Under the pieces are notes generated by a model that did no database searches, had not been told where the DNA came from, and worked only from the letters and a program-made list of their open reading frames with translations. Made by a program: the position numbers and the translations under genes. Below, piece after piece: positions 42,854 through 53,816 of a stretch of 64,000 nt of DNA (its first letter is position 1; each line of letters starts with the position of its first letter). The DNA is from an uncultured bacterium (lineage in GTDB: Bacteria; Bacillota; Clostridia; Lachnospirales; Lachnospiraceae): NCBI GenBank assembly GCA_947651225.1, contig CANSYK010000002.1:1-64000 (forward strand), written 5' to 3'.

Positions 42854-42945
42854 ACTATTTTGTAATTTCTTCCTCTTTTTATGATAGTAAAAATATGCAA
42901 TAATTATAAAACTAGAAGTAAAAAATGAACGTGAGGAGGGAAACT

Positions 42946-44933
42946 ATGAGAAATTATAAAAAGTATGGCAGCCGTATTACGGCGGTCGCCATGGCAGCAG
43001 CTATGGTAGTAACAAGCGTGCCATCAGCAGTAAGTGCGATGGCAGCATCAGGAACAGATGCACTGGCAGATGTGGAAGATACTGTTAGTGAGCCTGATCC
43101 GGTAAGAATCGACGGAGGCGTAGACATCGAGGCATATAATGGAAAGGTAGAAAATGAATATGCACAGCCTTTGAACGGTTCCTTTAGCAGCAATGCTGTT
43201 AACCTGGAAGTGCCAGACAAAGATGGTGATGAAGACATCAGCGTTATGGAATGGGATGGGACAAAGCAGTGGGCAAATGGCAGGCATACTTCCGTCAGGC
43301 AGGAACATATGATGTAGCCTTGACGATGAAGGTGACGGAACCTGATCAAGGTGATTTCACAAACTTCAAGTTTGGTGTATATGAAAATGTAGATGATGAA
43401 AACCCAACAGATGAGACCCCAATGGATTCGGAGGGGACAGTGATTACGGAAGATGCAGTAAAGGTATGGATGACATCAACAGAGAAGTCTCAGGATATGT
43501 TGTGGTATAAAGAGCCTACAGAGATGAAAAATCAGTTAGCTGAAAAGACTCTTTGGATATTACAACAGTTGATAATCAGGAAATGACACGGATTAATGTA
43601 GATCCAAACACGACATACCAGACATTTCTTGGAATGGGAAGTTCTTTGGAAGAATCTTCCGTATACAATCTGAATCAGTTAAAGGATGATGTAAAGCAAT
43701 CCTTTATTGAGGATCTTGTAAATCCGGAAAAAGGTGGTATGACACTGTTCCGTGTAACAATCGCTACGGCAGATTTCACATCACGCAGATTCTATACCTA
43801 TTATGACATTGACAATATTAATGCACTGCCGGCAGATTTTACACCAAACTGGTATCCGGCAGATGGAGAAACAGGATTTACGATTCAAAAAGACAGAGAT
43901 TATGGAATCATTGATACGATTAAGATGGTTCAGGCTGCAGCAAAGAAGTAAGATGAAAGAACTGATTCAGGGGAGTGAAATTTTAAAGAAGAACAATATT
44001 ACAGATGTAAAGCTTTGGGCATTTGACCATAATTGCAGCATTGCAGAAAATTATGTAAAGGCAATTGCGTCTGTACCTGGTGCAATGGATGCAATTGATG
44101 GTATTGCTTTCCATGACTATGGTGGAGATTTGGCTACCATGCAGAAAATTTTAGACACATATCAGAATCAGGGTGAGAAGAAAGACCAGACTGTAAACCT
44201 GACAGAGCGTTCTGTATGGGGAACAAAAGGCGCAAATTCTATGGTTACTTATTTGCGTAACAGTGCAATCAGCTACAATGCATGGGTAACAATGTTAGAT
44301 AGTGATGTTAATTATCACCAGTGGTCTACTGGGGGAAATGATGATGGTACAACGCAATATGGTACATCAGATCCTACAATGTTTGCAAGATTGGCTGGAA
44401 GTGATACAGAATACTGGGCAGCACCGGAATTCTATATTACTGGTCAGTTCTCAAGATTTATCCGTCCAGGATATGTGCGTGTAGCATCTGACGAAGGTAC
44501 TACAGCTACAATCAGAAACGTTGTATTCCAGAATCCGGAAACAAAGGAACTTGTTGCAGTTGTTGTAAATGCGTCAAAGAAGAAACAAAACTTTAAGTTT
44601 GTAATTGGTGATGAGCAGTTTATCGGTGCAGTTCCGGCAGGAAATGTTGCAACGTATGTCTGGGGCGCAGTTGAGGAAGAAAAACCAAAAGTTTCATCTA
44701 CAAAGGTTACTCTAAATAGAAGTAAAGTCTGCCTTGTAAAAGGAAAGAGTGTTAAGATTAAGGGTGTTATGGCACCTGCAAGCACAACAGATAAGCTTAC
44801 ATGGAGCAGCTCTAAAAAATCAGTTGCTACAGTAAGTAATGGCAAGATTACTGCAAAGAAAGTTGGAACAGCAACAATTACTGCAACTACAAGCAGTGGT
44901 AAGAAAATAACATGTAAGGTTACTGTAAAATAA
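42946..44933 (+). pseudogene. Secreted GH30-like glycosidase with Ig-like domain, broken
   Basis: The ATG at 42946 (GAGGAGGGAAACT) opens a signal peptide (AVAMAAAMVVTSVPSAVSAM). The coding frame shifts near 43290 and 43570 and the GH30 N-terminal barrel appears (FLGMGSSLEESSVYNLNQL). At 43951 it stops at AAAKK. Coding resumes with MKELIQGSEILKKNNITDVK, skipping the stretch where GH30 enzymes carry the acid/base Asn-Glu-Pro. The rest has AFHDYGG, the nucleophile region NLTERSVWG, the beta domain, and a C-terminal BIG2-like domain (STKVTLNRSKVCLVKGKSVK, TWSSSKKSVATVSNGKITA). At least two frameshifts and one deletion; inactive as read. Confidence 0.8.
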
Positions 44934-45432: not shown

Positions 45433-45942
45433 ATATAAGGCATATTGTAAAAAAATATGAAGAGCATCCAATATTAGATGACTTTAGCTTAGAAGTGAAG
45501 GAAGGGGAGGGTGTGGTAATTGTCGGTCCAAGCGGCTGTGGAAAAAGTACGCTTCTTCGGTGCATTAATGGGCTGGAACCGATTCAGTCTGGCAGTATTG
45601 CAGTGGATGGGCAGGAGACAATTGGCAGCACAAGAAATTTATCGTTTCTCAGGCAAAAAGTCGGCATGGTCTTTCAGAGTTATGAATTATTTCCACATCT
45701 GACTATATTGAATAACATTATGCTGGCACCGGTTAAAGTACAGAAAAGGGTAAAAGATGAAGTGAATAAAGGGGCTATGGAACTTCTGGCAAGAGTAGGG
45801 CTGGAGGATAAGGCTGGCAGCTATCCAGGGCAGTTATCTGGTGGACAGAAGCAGAGAGTAGCTATTGTCAGGGCATTGGTTCTGCATCCGGAGATTTTGC
45901 TGTTTGATGAGGTGACTGCGGCATTGGATCCGGAAATGGTCA
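45429..45942 (+). pseudogene. Amino acid ABC transporter ATPase (GlnQ-like), truncated at both ends
   Basis: The frame reads LNIRHIVKKYEEHPILDDFS without a start codon, the 5' end being cut by the IS110 remnant. Walker A is VGPSGCGKST, the Q-loop VFQSYELFPHL, the signature QLSGGQKQRVAIVRAL and Walker B ILLFDEVTAALDPEMV. Right after LDPEMV it runs into an ISAs1 transposase tail; the two share the bases GAAATGGT at the joint. About 70 C-terminal residues are lost. No permease or binding protein gene remains. Confidence 0.85.
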
Positions 45943-46122
45943 GTGGAAATTATGCACTGGCATTTGGATGTAACGTTTAAAGAAGATGCCAACACTACTT
46001 TGGATAAAACAGCAGCACAGAATCTGAATATCATAAATAAGTGGTGTTTATCCATATTAAAACTTTTTGATGTGGGGAAGAAAATAAAGGCACAAATATC
46101 CATACTTGAATATCTATTATGA
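45937..46122 (+). mobile_element. ISAs1-family transposase C-terminal remnant
   Basis: In the frame offset from glnQ, 45937-46122 reads WSVEIMHWHLDVTFKEDANT followed by TLDKTAAQNLNIINKWCLSI and a stop. This is the conserved C-terminal region of ISAs1-type DDE transposases. The N-terminus and both element ends are missing. Confidence 0.75.
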
Positions 46123-46287: not shown

Positions 46288-46375
46288 GTATTATAGAAAA
46301 ATGCCTGCTATACAGCGGATACCCATTAGAAAGTACCCGCAGGGCAGCATCGTGCCAGCAAAAAGGGGGATGATT

Positions 46376-46699
46376 ATGGAAATGAGAATTAAGGAACATC
46401 CGATTCTGGGTGTGCAGGAGAAAGAAAAAGAAGTAACTTTTTTCTTTGACGGACAGGAAATAAAGGGGTATGAAGGGGAGCCGATTGCGGCAGCGTTAAA
46501 AGCAGCAGGATTTATGGTTCACAGATATACTAAGAAAGAGCATAAGCCCCGTGGAATTTTTTGTGCGATTGGACGCTGCACCGATTGTGTTATGGTGGTA
46601 GATGGAAAACCGAATGTGAGGACCTGCGTCACACCATTGAAGGAAGGTATGCAGATTCAGACGCAGGACGGCGTAACAGCTTTAAAACAAATGAAGTAA
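46376..46699 (+). CDS. 2Fe-2S subunit of an HcnA/opine-oxidase-like dehydrogenase
   Basis: 107 residues from the ATG at 46376, preceded by AAAAAGGGGG. It matches the small 2Fe-2S subunits of hydrogen cyanide synthase (HcnA), opine oxidase and dye-linked proline dehydrogenase: VTFFFDGQEIKGYEGEPIAAAL, PRGIFCAIGRCTDCVMVVDG (CxxGxCxxC cluster motif) and NVRTC (fourth Cys). First gene of the 46.4-53.8 kb operon. It would pass electrons with the FAD/4Fe-4S subunit encoded 90 bases downstream. Confidence 0.85.
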   Translation: MEMRIKEHPILGVQEKEKEVTFFFDGQEIKGYEGEPIAAALKAAGFMVHRYTKKEHKPRGIFCAIGRCTDCVMVVDGKPNVRTCVTPLKEGMQIQTQDGVTALKQMK

Positions 46700-46790
46700 G
46701 ATAACGGGAAAATGCAGAAACGGTGCCATTTACAGGCAGACTGTCAGTTTTGCAATTATGGACGTTTTAGTCGACATGGGGGAAATATAT

Positions 46791-48368
46791 ATGAAGAGAT
46801 ACGATTTAATTATTGTGGGTGCAGGACCATCCGGTCTATCCGCAGCAGTAGAAGCGGCAAAAAGGGGGATACAGGTTGTAGTATTTGACGAAAACGAAAA
46901 ACCAGGCGGACAGCTTTTTAAGCAGATTCATAAGTTTTTTGGTTCAAAAGAACATAAAGCAAAAATTAGGGGATTCCGTATAGGGGAGGATTTACTGAAA
47001 GAGGCGTCAGAGTGTGGCGTAGAAGTTGTGCTGAATGCTACAGTAATCGGACTGTATCTGGAAAAAGAAGTTACTGTCCGGATTGGGGATGCGGTGGAGC
47101 ACTATAAAGGGGATGCCATTATTGTTGCTTCTGGTGCATCTGAAAATATGGTGACATTTGACGGTTGGACACTGCCCGGCGTGATTGGTGCTGGTGCCGC
47201 CCAGACAATGATGAATCTTCATGGCGTGAAGCCGGGCAGGAAGATTCTGATGTTAGGTTCAGGAAATGTTGGGCTGGTGGTCAGCTTCCAGCTGTTGCAG
47301 TGCGGCTGTGATGTAGTGGCGTTGGTAGATGCGGCTCCGCACATAGGTGGGTATGGTGTTCATGCAGCGAAAGTTGCAAGAACGGGAGTGCCGTTCTATT
47401 TATCGCATACGATTGTGAAAGCGGAGGGGGAAGACAGGGTAACGGGGGTCAGGATTGCTGAGGTGGATGATAAATTCCAGTTTATTCCTGGAACAGAGAA
47501 ACACTTTGAGGTGGATACAATCTGTCTGGCAGTGGGGCTTTCGCCTATGTCCCAGCTTCTTAAAATGGCAGGCTGCAAAATGGAAGACAATCCAAAGAAA
47601 GGCGGCCAGGTTCCAATCTGTGATGAGATGGGAAGGACATCTGTGGAAGGTGTTTTTGTGGCGGGAGATGTATCTGGAATTGAGGAAGCCAGCTCCGCAA
47701 TGATTGAGGGAAGAATTGCTGGAATAACGGCAGCAGAATATCTGGGGTATATGGACAGCATAGAATCGGGGCAGAGAGTAAAGGGGCACGAAGAAGCATT
47801 AGAGGGGCTGCGGCAGGGTATGTTTGCTCCAAAGAATCGTGGAAAGAAAATAGAAACGACAGACGAAGGAATACAAATATCAGAGAACCTGTTAAAAAGA
47901 GGTTACATAGCAGATGATGAGATAGGTCGTTATCCAGGCATAAGACAGGCAGCAGGCGTGCATCCGGTTATGGAATGTACACAGAATATACCATGCAATC
48001 CCTGTCAGGATGCATGTCCAAAAGGATGCATCAGCATCGGGGAAAATATAACATCGCTTCCAATAGCGGTGGAAGGGGCAGAATGTGTTGGCTGTGGAAT
48101 GTGTGTGGCTTCCTGTTCCGGTCAGGCGATTTTTCTGGTAGATGAACAGGCAGGAGATGGATATGCCAGTGTTACCATGCCATATGAGTTTCTTCCGCTT
48201 CCTGAAGTGGGGGCAAGGGGGAAAGGGCTTGGGCGTGACGGCAGGCCGGTATGTGAGGCGGAGGTTTTAAAAGTACAGACGGCAAAAGCATTTGACCAGA
48301 CACATTTGCTGACGGTTAAGGTTCCTGTATACATGGCAATGAAAGCGAGATTTTTCGTAGCAGATTAG
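46791..48368 (+). CDS. FAD/4Fe-4S pyridine nucleotide-disulfide oxidoreductase subunit (HcnB-like)
   Basis: 525 residues from the ATG at 46791 (GGGGGAAATATAT). The N-terminal FAD motif is DLIIVGAGPSGLSAAVEAAK. A second Rossmann motif is KILMLGSGNVGLVVSFQLL. FAD-binding GVFVAGDVSGIEE follows. The last 130 residues add a ferredoxin-like module with cysteine clusters IPCNPCQDACPKGC and CVGCGMCVASC for two 4Fe-4S clusters. That is more iron-sulfur than canonical HcnB, which carries a BFD domain; here BFD is a separate gene next door. Core electron-transfer subunit of a multisubunit amine, amino or imino acid dehydrogenase. Confidence 0.88.
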   Translation: MKRYDLIIVGAGPSGLSAAVEAAKRGIQVVVFDENEKPGGQLFKQIHKFFGSKEHKAKIRGFRIGEDLLKEASECGVEVVLNATVIGLYLEKEVTVRIGDAVEHYKGDAIIVASGASENMVTFDGWTLPGVIGAGAAQTMMNLHGVKPGRKILMLGSGNVGLVVSFQLLQCGCDVVALVDAAPHIGGYGVHAAKVARTGVPFYLSHTIVKAEGEDRVTGVRIAEVDDKFQFIPGTEKHFEVDTICLAVGLSPMSQLLKMAGCKMEDNPKKGGQVPICDEMGRTSVEGVFVAGDVSGIEEASSAMIEGRIAGITAAEYLGYMDSIESGQRVKGHEEALEGLRQGMFAPKNRGKKIETTDEGIQISENLLKRGYIADDEIGRYPGIRQAAGVHPVMECTQNIPCNPCQDACPKGCISIGENITSLPIAVEGAECVGCGMCVASCSGQAIFLVDEQAGDGYASVTMPYEFLPLPEVGARGKGLGRDGRPVCEAEVLKVQTAKAFDQTHLLTVKVPVYMAMKARFFVAD

Positions 48369-48434
48369 CATGGGGTATTTGGTTTTAATAGTGAAACGCT
48401 GTGCTGACTGTGATATAGAATGGAGGAAAGGGCA

Positions 48435-48764
48435 ATGTGTAAAATAAATGACAGGTCGAGGAATATTGGGCAGTATATTCCTGCGCCGGATGACGATATG
48501 ATTATCTGCCGGTGCGAGGAAGTGACAAAGGGAGAAATCCGCAGGGCAGTACATGCAGGGCTGTATACCATTACAGAGATTCGGAGATATCTGAGGGCAG
48601 GCATGGGTCTGTGTCAGGGGCAGACCTGCGCAAAACTGGTCAAAGGTATTGTGGCAAAGGAATTGGGGGTATCGCCTGCAGAATTAGAGCCTGCCGGTTC
48701 CAGAGCACCTATGCGTCCAATAGAAATGGAAGTGTTTGGCAATGAGAGGGCGCAGGGCAGGTAA
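48435..48764 (+). CDS. BFD-like 2Fe-2S protein
   Basis: 109 residues from the ATG at 48435; the ATG at 48420 overlaps GGAGG and is rejected. The bacterioferritin-associated ferredoxin-like domain has its cysteines in MIICRCEEVTKGEI and GMGLCQGQTCAKL. In HcnB and sarcosine/opine oxidase alpha subunits this domain is fused; here it is free-standing and probably completes the electron path in the same complex. 66 bases after the previous gene, 32 before the next. Confidence 0.85.
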   Translation: MCKINDRSRNIGQYIPAPDDDMIICRCEEVTKGEIRRAVHAGLYTITEIRRYLRAGMGLCQGQTCAKLVKGIVAKELGVSPAELEPAGSRAPMRPIEMEVFGNERAQGR

Positions 48765-48796
48765 GTCAGGAAGAAATGACAGAATGGAGGTAAATT

Positions 48797-49918
48797 ATGG
48801 CAGATACAGCAGAAGTTATTATTATCGGGGGTGGGATTATCGGAAGTGCTGCTGCATATTATCTTGCGAAAAATGGAACTTCAGTAATTGTTCTGGAAAA
48901 GAGCAGTAATATCGGGGATGGCGGTTCTTCAAGAAATGGTGGTGGAGTAAGGCAGTCGGGACGTGATCCGAGGGAGTTGCCTTTGGCGATGTATGGTGTA
49001 GAGCATATGTGGCCAACACTTTCCGAGGAGCTTGGGATAAATGTGGAATATCACAAAGAGGGAAATTTAAGGTTAGGAAAGACGGCAAGGCACAAGGAAA
49101 TCCTACAGGGACTGACAGACAGGGCTGTGGCATGCGGTCTGGATGTGACAATGATTGATGGGGCGGAGGTGAGGGAGATTAATCCTTATCTGTCAGAAGA
49201 GGTAATCTGTGCAAGCTGGTGTCCAACAGACGGCCATGCAAACCCTCTTGCTGCTACACTCGGCTTTTATATGAAAGCAAGAAGCCTTGGGGCAAGGTTT
49301 ATCACCGGGGAAGAGGCCCTCAGGATTGAGAAGGTTAAAAGCAGGGCAAGAAAAGTAGTGACTAAAGCAAATGTCTATGAGGGGGAAAAAATTATCGTGG
49401 CATGCGGTTATGAGAGCAGAGCTCTGGTAAGAACAGTGGGCATTGATGTGCCAATGCGCAAAGAGTTAATCGAGGCATTGGTGACGGAGGCAGAACCGCA
49501 GATGTTTCCACAGATGCTTGGAACCGCAGATGCTGATTTCTATGGGCATCAGACAGAACATGGATCTTTTGTGTTTGGCGGTGCATCGGGATATGAGGAG
49601 ATGAATGAGGATGGTGGCAGGAATATGACAATGAGTATTACTGCTCCAAGTATCTGCCGCGGTATTATGAAATATGTTCCGAAGCTGTCCCAGACAAAAA
49701 TTGTCCGTACATGGGCAGGATATGAGGATGTGTGTGTAGACGGGATTCCGGTCATCAGTCCGGTAGAGGAAGTTTCGGGGCTGATACTGGCATGTGCTTT
49801 TACTGGACATGGATTTGGAATTGCGCCTGTTGTTGGAAAACTGCTGTCGGAGCTGACGATGGAGCAGGAAACATTTTTGGATCTGACGGAATTTCGTTAT
49901 GACCGTTTTCGGGGATAA
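48797..49918 (+). CDS. FAD-dependent amino/imino acid oxidase subunit (DAO/HcnC-like)
   Basis: 373 residues, DAO fold: dinucleotide motif VIIIGGGIIGSAAAYYLAKN, then SRNGGGVRQSGRDPRELPLA, active-site region WCPTDGHANPL and C-terminal VDGIPVISPVEEVSGL with FTGHGFGIAPVVGKLLSELT. It resembles sarcosine oxidase beta, HcnC and proline dehydrogenase beta subunits that oxidise the C-N bond. With the iron-sulfur subunits it should form a membrane-independent dehydrogenase complex. The true substrate is not evident; secondary or cyclic amino acids are likely candidates. Confidence 0.87.
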   Translation: MADTAEVIIIGGGIIGSAAAYYLAKNGTSVIVLEKSSNIGDGGSSRNGGGVRQSGRDPRELPLAMYGVEHMWPTLSEELGINVEYHKEGNLRLGKTARHKEILQGLTDRAVACGLDVTMIDGAEVREINPYLSEEVICASWCPTDGHANPLAATLGFYMKARSLGARFITGEEALRIEKVKSRARKVVTKANVYEGEKIIVACGYESRALVRTVGIDVPMRKELIEALVTEAEPQMFPQMLGTADADFYGHQTEHGSFVFGGASGYEEMNEDGGRNMTMSITAPSICRGIMKYVPKLSQTKIVRTWAGYEDVCVDGIPVISPVEEVSGLILACAFTGHGFGIAPVVGKLLSELTMEQETFLDLTEFRYDRFRG

Positions 49919-49930
49919 AGGAGGATGTTT

Positions 49931-51061
49931 ATGGATACAGGGATTAAATTTTTATATTTGAGTGAACCAGATATGATAAAAGCTGGTGTGAAAGATATGG
50001 CACAGTGTGTCGGGGTAATGGAGGATATGTTGGTCACATTAAGTGCAGGGGACTATGTAATGGCAGGGGAGAACCATAATTCCCATGGGGCGCAGGTAAG
50101 TTTTCCAAATAATCCGTTGTTTCCGGGAATGCCGAAAAATGCGGATGACCGCCGTTTTATGGCAATGCCGGCCTATCTTGGCGGGAAATACCAGATGGCA
50201 GGAATGAAGTGGTATGGTTCAAACTGTGACAATAAGCAGATAGGACTGCCGCGTTCTATTTTGATGATGATGTTAAATGACAAGGATACTGGGGCGCCTC
50301 TGGCATTGATGTCTGCTAATTTATTAAGTGCGTACCGTACAGGTGCGATTCCAGGGGTGGGTGCGAAATATCTTGCAAAGAAGGATTCCAAAACAGTTGC
50401 GGTTCTTGGGCCTGGTGTAATGGGAAAGACATCTCTGGCGGCATTTATGAGTGTTTGCCCACAAATTGATACTGTAAAAGTGAAGGGAAGGGGACAAAAA
50501 TCACTGGATTCTTTCGTGGAGTATGTGAAAACAGAGTTTCCGCAGGTAAAAAACATTATCATATGCGCTACGGAAGAAGAAGCTGTCAGGGGCAGCGATA
50601 TCATCAGTGTCACTTCTACAGCGCCTGTCAGGGAGAAAGATTTTACATATATTGATGGGAATTGGGTTAAGAAGGGGGCATTGATTTCACTGCCGTCGGC
50701 TGCCCGATTTGATGAAGATTTTCTGGTGAGCCGATGCCGTAAGGTAGTTGATAATTATAAGCTTTATGAGGCATGGGCAGAGGAATTTCCATATCCAAGC
50801 TACGAACTGGTACAGATTATCGGTGCCAAATTTACAGATTTTCTGCACGAAGGGAAAATAAAGCGGGAAGATATTATAGAGATTGCTGACGTGGTTCAAG
50901 GAAAAGCAGCCGCCAGAGAGAGTGAGGATGAAATTATCGTATATTCTGTAGGAGGGATGCCGGTGGAAGATATCGCATGGGGTGGTACAGTTTACCATAA
51001 TGCATTGGAAATGGGCATTGGTATAGAATTACCGCTTTGGGAGAAACCAGAGTTGGCATAG
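49931..51061 (+). CDS. Ornithine cyclodeaminase/mu-crystallin-family protein
   Basis: 376 residues. The first ATG (49925) abuts GGAGG; the second at 49931 has correct spacing. Family features: MAMPAYLGGKYQMAGMKWYG, NLLSAYRTGAIPGVGAKYLA, Rossmann motif VAVLGPGVMGKTSLAAFM, and SDIISVTSTAPV. Longer than ornithine cyclodeaminases of about 330-350 residues. Members may deaminate ornithine to proline, reduce delta1-pyrroline-2-carboxylate or act on other imino acids; some databases call close relatives tyramine oxidase subunit B. Its place directly behind an imino acid oxidase suggests it handles the same substrate or product. Confidence 0.8.
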   Translation: MDTGIKFLYLSEPDMIKAGVKDMAQCVGVMEDMLVTLSAGDYVMAGENHNSHGAQVSFPNNPLFPGMPKNADDRRFMAMPAYLGGKYQMAGMKWYGSNCDNKQIGLPRSILMMMLNDKDTGAPLALMSANLLSAYRTGAIPGVGAKYLAKKDSKTVAVLGPGVMGKTSLAAFMSVCPQIDTVKVKGRGQKSLDSFVEYVKTEFPQVKNIIICATEEEAVRGSDIISVTSTAPVREKDFTYIDGNWVKKGALISLPSAARFDEDFLVSRCRKVVDNYKLYEAWAEEFPYPSYELVQIIGAKFTDFLHEGKIKREDIIEIADVVQGKAAARESEDEIIVYSVGGMPVEDIAWGGTVYHNALEMGIGIELPLWEKPELA

Positions 51062-51075
51062 CAAGGGGAATTGCC

Positions 51076-51906
51076 ATGAAAAAACAAAACCTACAACAGG
51101 TACAGTTGTTACAGCCTTATTTAGAGTTTCGGACAAAAGATTATCGGGAAATTATAGAAAATAGCGAAGGGATATCACACTTTTACGAGTTTCAGTTGCG
51201 AAATGGGAAAAATTGCGGTTTACAGGCAGTGCCAGATGGTAGCGTGGATTTGTTGTTTGGAATAGGTGAAAAGCAGGTTCGTACGTTTATCGGTGGAACG
51301 GTGCTTCAGGCAAAGGCGTGGGAACTGCCAGAAGGGGGATTGCATTTTGGAATACGTTTTTTCCCAGGGCAGTGTAAGCTTCCGGCAGATTTGAAAATGG
51401 AAGAGATTATTGACAAAGATGTGGAAATCAGCGATGACCATTTTATTAAGGAATTTTCCGAACAGTTATTAGAGAAAAAAACGGCAAAAGAGCGCTCAGA
51501 GTTTTTCAGGGAATGGTATTGGAAAAAATTCTCATCAAAGAAGGAGAAAAATGCGGCAGCTATGCTTGAGCCGTATATCAGAAAAAGAATCTACGAGACA
51601 AAGGGGACAATCAGTATGAAGGAACTGGCAGCAGATACGGGATATTCTGCATGTTATATCAGACGTATATTTTCAAAGGTACATGGTGTGCCGCCGAAAG
51701 TATTTGGGAAATTTATCCGGTTCCAGAATGTACTTGATTATCTGACTTATGGTGGGCAGGCGGCAGGAGAAGCTTGTCCAGATATGGGCGAAATTGCATT
51801 GGAGTACGGATACAGCGACCAGCCCCATATGATTCATGAGTTTAAACATTACATGGGAACTACACCAGAAGCATATATGCGGTTGGTGAGAAGCCATAAG
51901 TTTTAA
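51076..51906 (+). CDS. AraC-family transcriptional regulator
   Basis: 276 residues from the ATG at 51076 (AAGGGG), 14 bases after the cyclodeaminase-like stop. N-terminal domain of unclear ligand; C-terminal double helix-turn-helix (TISMKELAADTGYSACYIRR then IFSKVHGVPPKVFGKFIRFQ, and ALEYGYSDQPHMIHEFKHYM with GTTPEAY). Probably the activator of this operon, sensing its substrate. Confidence 0.88.
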   Translation: MKKQNLQQVQLLQPYLEFRTKDYREIIENSEGISHFYEFQLRNGKNCGLQAVPDGSVDLLFGIGEKQVRTFIGGTVLQAKAWELPEGGLHFGIRFFPGQCKLPADLKMEEIIDKDVEISDDHFIKEFSEQLLEKKTAKERSEFFREWYWKKFSSKKEKNAAAMLEPYIRKRIYETKGTISMKELAADTGYSACYIRRIFSKVHGVPPKVFGKFIRFQNVLDYLTYGGQAAGEACPDMGEIALEYGYSDQPHMIHEFKHYMGTTPEAYMRLVRSHKF

Positions 51907-51991
51907 AGCAGAAAATGTAAATACTGTGCTCACGCATAGAACAGCAAGCTGTTCATGAAGTTTTTGGGCAGCGCAGGAATGGAGGATTAAT

Positions 51992-52336
51992 ATGGGATTA
52001 ACTAAAATTGAAGTAATTACAGGAATGTCAAAGTTTACCAGCTTAAAACATGCACTCAGCAAAGCAGGAGTCGGAGGGATGACTTTTATGCAGGTGCTTG
52101 GATGCGGTGTGGAAAAGGGAACCAGAGAGTATGAGGTGGATGAGCAGTACGAAATGGAACTGCTTCCAAAGCAGCAGATTAATATTGTGGTAGAGAGCGA
52201 GAAAGTAGACGATATTGTGGAGCTGATTAAACAGGAACTCTACACGGGGCATATCGGTGATGGGAAAATTTTCCTGTATCAGATTGATAATGCAATCCGT
52301 GTGCGTACCGGCGATGAAGGTGCTGATGCCCTGTAG
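51992..52336 (+). CDS. PII-family signal protein with altered T-loop
   Basis: 114 residues aligning along the whole length of GlnB. Conserved: GMTFMQVLG, TGHIGDGKIFLYQ (B-loop region with GDGK) and IRVRTGDEG (C-loop). The T-loop has the right length, but the segment corresponding to LYRGAEY reads YEVDEQY, so Tyr51, the uridylylation site, is Glu, and Arg38 is Val. It lies between AraC and an amino acid permease instead of an ammonium channel gene. It probably binds ATP/ADP and regulates the permease or the dehydrogenase. Confidence 0.87.
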   Translation: MGLTKIEVITGMSKFTSLKHALSKAGVGGMTFMQVLGCGVEKGTREYEVDEQYEMELLPKQQINIVVESEKVDDIVELIKQELYTGHIGDGKIFLYQIDNAIRVRTGDEGADAL

Positions 52337-52412
52337 GGCTGCTGTTCCAGATTTGTTGTATACAGCGAAACAAAAGTGGTTAAGGTTTATCTTGCAGAAA
52401 TGAGGGATTTAC

Positions 52413-53816
52413 ATGGAAGAAAAGAAATTAGGGTTGCGGAATGTGATTTCTGTGTCAGTTGGTTTAGTAATTGCTACGAGTTGTCTGGTTTCTCTTGGCG
52501 AGGGAGCAGGAACCATCGGTGTAGTATTTATTGTGGCTATGGTTATAGCATGTATTTTGAATATGATTACAATGGCTTCCGTATCTGAACTGAATGCCCT
52601 GATGCCGGATACAACGGGCGGGCTGGCACAATATACGCTTGCGAGCGTGGGGCCGGTGCCAACAATTGTTACAATGGTAGGGGGCTATCTGATTAGCAAT
52701 GTGCTCTCCTGCGGTGTGGAGGCATCTATCTTTGCATTTGCTATGAAGGAAACAATACCACTGCCAATTCCGTCGTTTGCGTATACTGTCATTGTTACAG
52801 TGATTTTATGGATTGCAAACCTAAAAGGTGTCGATATGTTTGCAAAACTTCAGGATGTGGTAGCGTTCCTGCTGCTTGGATCTATGGTTGTTATGGGATT
52901 GATTGGGATGTCTGGCATGGGAACCGGAGTAAAAGTAGACCAGCCAATGGTGTTAGAAAGTGACTTCTCTACGATTGTTTCCATGACAGCAGTTGCATTT
53001 TGGCTGTTTATCGGGGCAGAGTATGCAATTCCGATATCAAAAGATGTGAAAAATGCAAAGCGCAATGTTCCGCTGGGCATGTTCATTGGCCTTGGGCTAA
53101 TCTGCCTTGTGCAGTCGATTCTTGTGTTTGGATTTTATCATTACACAGACTGGGGGGAACTGGCAAATTCAGCGGCTCCGCACATGTTGTATGGAATGAA
53201 TCTTCTGGGCAGGCCGGGAAAGATATGGATGACATTTGTAGCGGCATTGGCGGTTATCAGTTCCCAAAACTCGGCGGTGCAGGCGTTGCCGGTGATTTGT
53301 CAGGGTATGGCAAAAATGAATATGATGCCGCAGTTTTTTGCAAAGACAAACAAAAATAATGTTCCATATATTGGCGTATGCCTAATTAGTGCATTGCTTT
53401 TAGTGTTTGGATATATCAGTGACAGTTCATCCGATATGATTAGTTTTCTGATTCTGGTGGGTTCTGTGTTCTGGATGTTTTCTTATATTTTCGTACATAT
53501 TGATGTGCTCGTACTGCGTCACAGGCTGCCAAAAGCGCCCCGGAGCTTCAAGGTACCCTTTGGTCCGGTGTTTCCGGTTATTGGTATTTTAGGTACCTCC
53601 TATATGGTGGTAAATATTTCAACAGACCCGAAAGAGAGATTGATGATCTGGGCTATTACCGGTGTGGCATTTTTGTTGTTGTTCATCTATTCTGTGGTCT
53701 GGATTAAGAAGAAGATGAACATGCCGGTATTTAAGAGTGTGCCAATGGAGAAGGTTCTTGCCATGGAAAATGATATGTATTATCAGATTAGAATACGAAA
53801 AGGGATTTGGAGATAA
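52413..53816 (+). CDS. APC-family amino acid permease
   Basis: 467 residues with about twelve membrane helices. APC signatures: GLVIATSCLVSLGEGAGTIG in helix 1, ELNALMPDTTGGLAQYTLAS in helix 2-loop, and FIGAEYAIPISKDVKNAKRN in helix 6. Last gene of the oxidoreductase operon; it should import the amino acid or amine that the complex oxidises. GAGG lies seven bases before the ATG. PII is encoded 76 bases upstream. Confidence 0.88.
   Translation: MEEKKLGLRNVISVSVGLVIATSCLVSLGEGAGTIGVVFIVAMVIACILNMITMASVSELNALMPDTTGGLAQYTLASVGPVPTIVTMVGGYLISNVLSCGVEASIFAFAMKETIPLPIPSFAYTVIVTVILWIANLKGVDMFAKLQDVVAFLLLGSMVVMGLIGMSGMGTGVKVDQPMVLESDFSTIVSMTAVAFWLFIGAEYAIPISKDVKNAKRNVPLGMFIGLGLICLVQSILVFGFYHYTDWGELANSAAPHMLYGMNLLGRPGKIWMTFVAALAVISSQNSAVQALPVICQGMAKMNMMPQFFAKTNKNNVPYIGVCLISALLLVFGYISDSSSDMISFLILVGSVFWMFSYIFVHIDVLVLRHRLPKAPRSFKVPFGPVFPVIGILGTSYMVVNISTDPKERLMIWAITGVAFLLLFIYSVVWIKKKMNMPVFKSVPMEKVLAMENDMYYQIRIRKGIWR

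Follow-up and report, generated by a model that had tools for sequence, protein, structure and literature searches.

Within a 64,000-nucleotide stretch of DNA from an uncultured Lachnospiraceae bacterium (NCBI GenBank assembly GCA_947651225.1, contig CANSYK010000002.1, positions 1 to 64,000 of the forward strand; hereafter the window), we examined a predicted redox operon of eight genes at positions 46376 to 53816. An earlier note, made from the sequence alone, had read this region as eight intact co-directional genes with short gaps. We confirmed this: all eight reading frames are open, all lie on the plus strand, and with the starts used, the intergenic gaps are, in gene order, 58, 51, 32, 6, 14, 85, and 76 bases. 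The starts at 46376 (the 2Fe-2S gene) and 51076 (the AraC gene) are our choice; an in-frame ATG also occurs at 46370.

The operon opens with four redox genes. The first encodes a 2Fe-2S subunit of 107 amino acids (46376..46699; PF13510, Fer2_4, 109.7 bits), and the second encodes a flavin adenine dinucleotide (FAD)/NAD(P)-type large subunit of 536 amino acids (46758..48368; PF07992, Pyr_redox_2, 125.6 bits) with two 4Fe-4S motifs in its C-terminal part. These are followed by a free-standing BFD 2Fe-2S protein of 114 amino acids (48420..48764; PF04324, Fer2_BFD, 53.5 bits; PF17806, SO_alpha_A3, 41.3 bits) and a DAO-type flavoprotein of 373 amino acids, which we presume to be the catalytic subunit (48797..49918; DAO, 222 bits). 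The fifth gene encodes a presumably NAD(P)-dependent enzyme of the OCD/mu-crystallin family, PRK06199, with 378 amino acids (49925..51061; OCD_Mu_crystall, 264 bits). Behind it lie the genes for an AraC-type regulator of 276 amino acids, whose start is uncertain (51076..51906; PF12833, HTH_18, 48.6 bits; DUF6597, 28 bits), a PII signaling protein of 114 amino acids (51992..52336; PF00543, P-II, 83.4 bits), and an APC-superfamily permease of 467 amino acids (52413..53816; PF13520, AA_permease_2, 110.8 bits). The best NCBIfam model for the permease, TIGR00909, gives 108.6 bits against a cut-off of 556.8. The PII protein is one of three P-II family matches in the window's genome, and G89, D90, G91, K92, and R105 are retained in at least 97% of 56 aligned sequences. 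These results support the view that this redox operon carries its own permease and its own PII protein.

The cysteines of the Fe-S proteins are conserved throughout. In the large subunit, C407, C413, C416, C420, and C424, together with C443, C446, C449, and C453, are present in all 63 aligned sequences (window included). The 2Fe-2S subunit keeps C63, C68, C71, and C84 in 53 of 53 sequences, and the BFD protein keeps four cysteines in 56 of 56. Pfam support for the 4Fe-4S part of the large subunit is weak (Fer4_7, 24.3 bits; cut-off, 27). Because its nine cysteines are kept in every sequence, the predicted extra 4Fe-4S module is nevertheless well supported. By these cysteines and the Pfam families, the earlier parts list (2Fe-2S, FAD/4Fe-4S, BFD, DAO, OCD-family, AraC, PII, and APC) was right.

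We compared the redox subunits with known enzymes. The best NCBIfam model for the large subunit is soxA, at 134 bits against a cut-off of 1164, and the soxB model gives 132 bits against 529, so both models of heterotetrameric sarcosine oxidase are missed. In profile comparison, the DAO subunit is nearest to 1y56_B (201 bits) and far from DauA (38 bits); a search of the window's genome with the DAO protein matched only the protein itself. The fold of the DAO subunit and the presence of a FAD subunit like soxA are shared with SoxA/SoxB and the 1y56 dye-linked L-proline dehydrogenase, but these enzymes and HcnABC differ from the operon in subunit split and Fe-S content. The nopaline oxidase cluster of pTiC58, which we compared directly, likewise has the three redox building blocks (DAO, 2Fe-2S, and FAD/BFD), together with an OCD-family gene and an arginase gene nearby. 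As in opine oxidase and HcnABC-type enzymes, the DAO, 2Fe-2S, and FAD subunits of the operon are encoded together. In pTiC58, however, the FAD subunit has BFD fused to it and shows neither of the 4Fe-4S motifs, whereas the operon has a separate BFD gene and both motifs. The 2Fe-2S proteins match at 28% over 87 residues and the FAD subunits at 27% over 367 residues, and the BFD protein of the operon corresponds, at 33%, to residues 373-463 of the FAD subunit in pTiC58. The kinship with opine oxidase and dye-linked proline dehydrogenase in a different split, as first suggested, is thus supported, and the putative complex belongs to the sarcosine/opine/proline oxidoreductase kind, with its parts split anew and 4Fe-4S motifs added.

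Conservation and neighbors in related operons

A scan with the OCD-family protein, covering a single genome for each species, yielded 125 confirmed matches, the best 80 of which were analyzed as loci; the presence of a gene at these 80 loci was judged by our own bit thresholds. All eight genes occur in the window's order at 29 of the 80. At 3 others, the four redox genes and the OCD-family gene are followed by part of the remaining genes; at 20, the OCD-family gene lies ahead of the four redox genes; and at 9, these genes stand in another order. Seven loci are partial, and 12 have no DAO and large-subunit genes above the thresholds, several of them ending at contig edges (L011, L020, L044, and L070). 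Because all eight genes keep the window's order at 29 loci and the redox genes and OCD-family gene are otherwise arranged at 32, the eight-gene grouping is not due to chance. Among the loci with all eight genes are those of Roseburia, Anaerostipes, Agathobacter, and other Lachnospiraceae, of two Coriobacteriales/Coriobacteriaceae, and of one Olsenella, while Acetobacterium and a Clostridium are among those with other gene orders. Synteny in relatives, whose absence the earlier note had named as a possible refutation, is therefore present, and the co-occurrence extends beyond Lachnospiraceae. Roseburia, Anaerostipes, Agathobacter, and others that carry the operon are known gut butyrate producers, and the host of the window is an anaerobic, probably gut-dwelling bacterium.

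The partnership of the redox genes with the OCD-family gene is not limited to a shared locus. Ten of the 12 genomes without redox genes at the locus were searched, and all 10 hold a DAO relative (best match, 58 to 63% identity, one of them partial). In 13 stretches around these relatives, the DAO gene lies mostly beside other redox genes, and the stretches often hold an OCD-family gene, genes like those for an iron alcohol dehydrogenase (Fe-ADH), PotABCD-like genes, or other transporter genes. These genomes thus contain both the redox set and the OCD-family protein, even where the genes for them lie apart. Among 299 genomes drawn from the phylum, 4 pass the PRK06199 cut-off, the window's own included. 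The computation establishes the composition of the operon, its conservation, and the partnership of its genes.

Sister operons carry further genes. A PotD-like cluster is found at 22 of the 80 loci and an Fe-ADH-like cluster at 18. The typical order of such Pot-type operons is a LuxR-type regulator, PII, PotABCD-like genes, two OCD-family genes, the four redox genes, and an Fe-ADH-like gene; the names LuxR, Dpp, and NhaC, and Amt in L099, were assigned by look. PotA passes one polyamine-transporter subfamily model (378 bits; cut-off, 356). At L047, genes for agmatine deiminase AguA (574 bits; cut-off, 382) and N-carbamoylputrescine amidase AguB (461 bits; cut-off, 410) lie between two OCD-family genes, and clusters of AguA and AguB occur at four loci (L047, L060, L064, and L066). 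Locus L034 has AraC, PII, and APC genes of the window type together with a second OCD-family gene and an Fe-ADH-like gene. Because it combines both gene sets, L034 ties the window type to the aldehyde-handling type.

Some loci show other surroundings. L124 (1491-13299) holds a PRK06199-family gene (472 bits) in a run with GcvPA, A and B genes that resemble those of caprolactamase/hydantoinase (below cut-off), and an ABC transporter of the Dpp type; its genome has no close DAO relative, and the locus may reveal another substrate class for the PRK06199 family. L103 (264-12948) has a more divergent DAO gene (43%) with redox partners, in a run that also includes a gene like those for class III aminotransferases and two genes of the aldehyde dehydrogenase family. 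At L096, L100, L101, L102, and L104, a membrane protein of 501 to 511 amino acids is encoded in or beside the redox clusters. It is NhaC antiporter-like by look only, and the L100 protein, the sole one scanned, had no NCBIfam match.

The OCD-family protein and its partners in aerobes

At 580 bits, the OCD-family protein passes the cut-off (362) of the NCBIfam model PRK06199, "tyramine oxidase subunit B," and tyramine as a substrate comes only from the title of that model. The operon is an anaerobic counterpart of the gene set that databases hold as "tyramine oxidase," a name that we could trace no further. In the open-licence PMC literature we found neither a description of the gene set nor a characterized substrate, although an account in a subscription journal may be missed; to that extent, the prior characterization that the earlier note had named as a possible refutation was not found.

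The nearest relatives of the OCD-family protein are SbnB, alanine dehydrogenase, and pyrroline-2-carboxylate reductase. SbnB, which acts with SbnA in making L-2,3-diaminopropionate (PMC3179956), is about 29% identical to the operon protein in the aligned part but, unlike it, is not encoded beside an oxidase. All 101 aligned OCD-family sequences keep Lys95 and Arg138. These align with a Lys and an Arg of SbnB, whose structure, going by the titles of its PDB entries, holds an opine-like secondary amine.

Cyclodeaminase activity did not fit the operon protein. In ornithine and lysine cyclodeaminases, an active-site Glu and Asp hold the side-chain amino group. The Glu of pTiC58 Ocd aligns with Met79 of the operon protein, at a position that is Met in 89 and Asn in 12 of the 101 sequences, and the Asp of the pTiC58 Ocd motif GGDCPGK falls in an alignment gap. 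The cyclodeaminase models NF005762 (70 bits; cut-off, 350) and NF006141 (72 bits; cut-off, 408) are both missed. We rejected cyclodeaminase function because the Glu and Asp are not conserved, the scores are far below the cut-offs, and the fold ranking favors SbnB, alanine dehydrogenase, and pyrroline-2-carboxylate reductase. On sequence grounds, the name "ornithine cyclodeaminase" misleads. The second OCD-family gene of the Pot-type operons may do something else again, because a tree of 68 OCD-family rows groups it with contexts that lack DAO (L124, L125, L157, and L170), with moderate support (93/94).

The same OCD-family protein occurs in aerobic bacteria, although for part of the hosts an aerobic life is presumed. 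Our actinobacterial sample comprised 120 genomes, from the family of one genome in the phylum of a Coriobacteriales record (taken as Actinomycetota). PRK06199 was found at an E value of 1e-100 or better in 10 of these genomes, at 14 places. A DAO flavoenzyme gene directly adjoins the OCD-family gene at nine of the places and is one gene off at a tenth. Against the N-methyl-L-tryptophan oxidase (NMTO) model (cut-off, 257), the DAO partners at L142, L148, and L149 exceed the cut-off (288, 285, and 275 bits), and those at L123 (213 bits) and L140 (248 bits) do not reach it. The label "NMTO" otherwise denotes BLAST similarity to the L123 flavoenzyme, with only these five checked against NCBIfam. 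For GC-rich loci, genes were called with a codon-scored open reading frame caller, and labels came from BLAST against our own query set. The order at L149 is an aldehyde dehydrogenase-family gene, the OCD-family gene, DAO, a regulator (by look), and an APC permease. At L123, an Amt gene (376 bits; cut-off, 343) lies near the OCD-DAO pair.

Plasmids provided a second set. Matches to the window's OCD-family protein occur in 625 plasmid records, and we examined 16 regions from 25 listed matches. In 14 of the 16, the OCD-family gene, whose product is 52.8 to 56.9% identical to the window protein, is followed by genes for a Rid protein and an FAD oxidoreductase. An APC permease gene lies within four genes in 9 of the 16 regions. 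An aldehyde dehydrogenase-family gene comes directly after the triad in three regions (L159, L165, and L168) and lies farther from it in L154 and L169. Region L158 has genes for a semialdehyde dehydrogenase and an iron alcohol dehydrogenase, and L167 has an agmatinase gene nearby. On the Sphingobium plasmids of L159 and L165, the run of OCD, Rid, FAD oxidoreductase, and aldehyde dehydrogenase genes stands amid ndp genes annotated for nicotine degradation.

The proteobacterial OCD-Rid-DAO set and the actinobacterial OCD-DAO pair share their OCD-family protein with the operon and, like it, often include an APC permease and a helix-turn-helix regulator, either of the AraC type or of another. However, the oxidase in them is one flavoprotein, next to which the regions examined show no annotated genes for Fe-S partners, whereas the operon has a four-gene Fe-S complex, an added PII gene, and no Rid gene.

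A proposed route from amine to aldehyde

The genes that surround the operon's relatives (AguA, AguB, PotABCD-like, Fe-ADH-like, aldehyde dehydrogenase-family, Rid, and agmatinase genes) argue for a role with amines and aldehydes. That the OCD-family protein recurs beside DAO flavoenzymes in several phyla also counts in favor of such a role. We consider it probable that the operon is an oxygen-independent form of an amine-to-aldehyde module and serves amine catabolism in an anaerobe. The earlier note had proposed the import of a secondary or cyclic amino acid "or an amine." It is the latter that the neighbors favor, and they weaken the case for a secondary or cyclic amino acid as the import. 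The imported amine would perhaps be of the polyamine or biogenic-amine kind. If this broad reading is true, many gut-type anaerobes hold a conserved and regulated oxygen-free amine oxidation, with a bearing on what becomes of polyamines and other biogenic amines in the gut. It would also give a testable function to a protein family found in Bacillota, Actinomycetota, and Pseudomonadota.

As for the mechanism, our tentative choice, held at less than even confidence, is an opine-type shuttle. The APC permease would import a primary amine, with AraC and PII as regulators; PII would presumably couple uptake to the nitrogen or energy state. The PRK06199 enzyme would be an N-substituted amino-acid dehydrogenase that runs toward reduction, combining the amine with a 2-oxo acid and NAD(P)H to form an opine-like secondary amine. 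Going by homology, the four-subunit complex would then oxidize this secondary amine on the alkyl side, and the resulting imine would hydrolyze to an aldehyde and an amino acid. The electrons would pass via the FAD, 2Fe-2S, and 4Fe-4S centers to NAD(P)+ or ferredoxin rather than to O2, as the Fe-S content and the anaerobic relatives suggest. Lastly, an alcohol or aldehyde dehydrogenase of the sort encoded in sister operons would remove the aldehyde. In its logic, the scheme would resemble the N-methylglutamate and saccharopine routes, but with other proteins.

We prefer the shuttle on two grounds: each enzyme would do work in keeping with that of its closest relatives, and partners from Actinobacteria score with an N-methyl amino acid oxidase model. 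Those from Proteobacteria lend this preference nothing further. A shuttle would account for an imine-reductase-type enzyme being kept beside an amine-oxidase-type enzyme in bacteria with quite different oxidases. A wider claim, possible but doubtful, is that an SbnB-like reductase and a 4Fe-4S-extended sarcosine-oxidase-type dehydrogenase form a general oxygen-independent opine shuttle, of which the papers searched gave no account. With it, Roseburia, Anaerostipes, Agathobacter, and other carriers would consume putrescine-like amines, and the aerobic OCD-Rid-DAO sets would be its O2-using form.

Several observations weigh against the amine-to-aldehyde reading or the shuttle. Within the window operon, there is no alcohol dehydrogenase, aldehyde dehydrogenase, or Rid gene. 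In the relatives, PotC (274 bits; cut-off, 326), PotD (245 bits; cut-off, 582), Fe-ADH (300 bits; cut-off of the best model, 645), and Rid (46 bits; cut-off, 106) carry family-level names, and the neighboring aldehyde dehydrogenases that were scanned all fall below the model cut-offs. Agmatine is not the general substrate, because agmatine deiminase is absent from the window's genome and present in only 8 of the 36 related genomes examined; in six of these eight, it is not on the fetched locus. The pairing with DAO also has gaps: 4 of the 14 actinobacterial places have no DAO gene within two genes, two Agrobacterium/Rhizobium plasmid regions at 44% identity have none nearby, and two genomes (G280 and G291) pass the PRK06199 cut-off but lack a close DAO relative (best match, 28% and 30% identity, respectively). 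For the four proteobacterial FAD oxidoreductases scanned, the best model is glycine oxidase ThiO (127 to 140 bits; cut-off, 251), followed by soxB, and the N-methyl-tryptophan oxidase model gives only 104 to 116 bits. Because these partners score ThiO-like, only those from Actinobacteria suggest that the substrate is an N-alkyl amino acid. In fold comparison of the DAO subunit, glycine oxidase ranks level with SoxB and 1y56_B. The Lys with a carboxylate role in the GHGF region of SoxB is replaced by an invariant Gly341 in the operon's DAO. Substrate, product, and reaction direction are proposals only.

We also tried a tree-distance test for two co-evolving halves of the operon. On 26 loci, r(OCD,APC) was 0.93 versus 0.60 for r(DAO,APC), but the signal was gone on a set of 20 loci, where the difference had a bootstrap interval of -0.12 to 0.09 and from which four rearranged loci were excluded and L003, L023, and L038 were dropped since a 2Fe-2S frame was required. 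The loss of the signal counts against our reading, and we did not use this test.

Direct amine dehydrogenation with ammonia fixation is almost as likely as the opine shuttle. The complex would oxidize the primary amine to an imine and thus to an aldehyde and ammonia, and the PRK06199 enzyme, like archaeal alanine dehydrogenase, would aminate a keto acid with this ammonia and NAD(P)H, which would make the pair redox-neutral. However, this leaves unexplained why a dedicated aminating enzyme stays beside the oxidase in aerobes, and the scores of the actinobacterial partners with the N-methyl amino acid oxidase model also speak against it.

A secondary or cyclic amino acid route is unlikely. The OCD-family enzyme would reduce a cyclic imino acid or cyclize a diamine or diamino acid, and a proline-, pipecolate-, or pyrrolidine-type product would be oxidized by the complex, acting like proline dehydrogenase. 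However, the Glu and Asp typical of cyclodeaminases are not conserved, and the neighbor genes point to amines and aldehydes.

Catabolism of a ready-made opine or N-carboxyalkyl amine, such as a plant opine or a glycation product, is more improbable still. Its model is pTiC58, on which genes for opine oxidase, arginase, and ornithine cyclodeaminase are grouped. However, the Ti plasmid Ocd is only a distant relative of the PRK06199 protein (25% identity over 301 residues; end branch of 8.67 in the OCD tree), and the partners in aerobes are single flavoproteins. The passages that we read in PMC9501902 name no genes for carboxymethyl-lysine degradation, a lead that we leave within this explanation.

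Least likely of all is a D-to-L amino acid inversion as in DauA/DauB, in which the complex would dehydrogenate a D-amino acid and the OCD-family enzyme would reduce the imino acid to the L-form, since DauA is remote from the DAO subunit in sequence and the agmatine deiminase, PotABCD-like, and alcohol dehydrogenase-like genes of sister operons would be unaccounted for.

Sequence surrounding the operon

At Rfam gathering thresholds, a tRNA is the sole match in the whole window. Between 45900 and 54200, a promoter scan predicted 16 sites versus 16.3 in shuffles and a terminator scan predicted 12 versus 6.1; we draw no claim from either. Upstream of the operon, at 45495-45980, lies a fragment of a GlnQ-like ABC ATPase gene that covers positions 25-171 of the 240-position profile and looks truncated. 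Also near the intact operon, pieces of a GH30-type glycosidase and a Big_2 domain are spread across overlapping frames at 42925-44933, which probably reflects a frameshifted gene or an assembly error.

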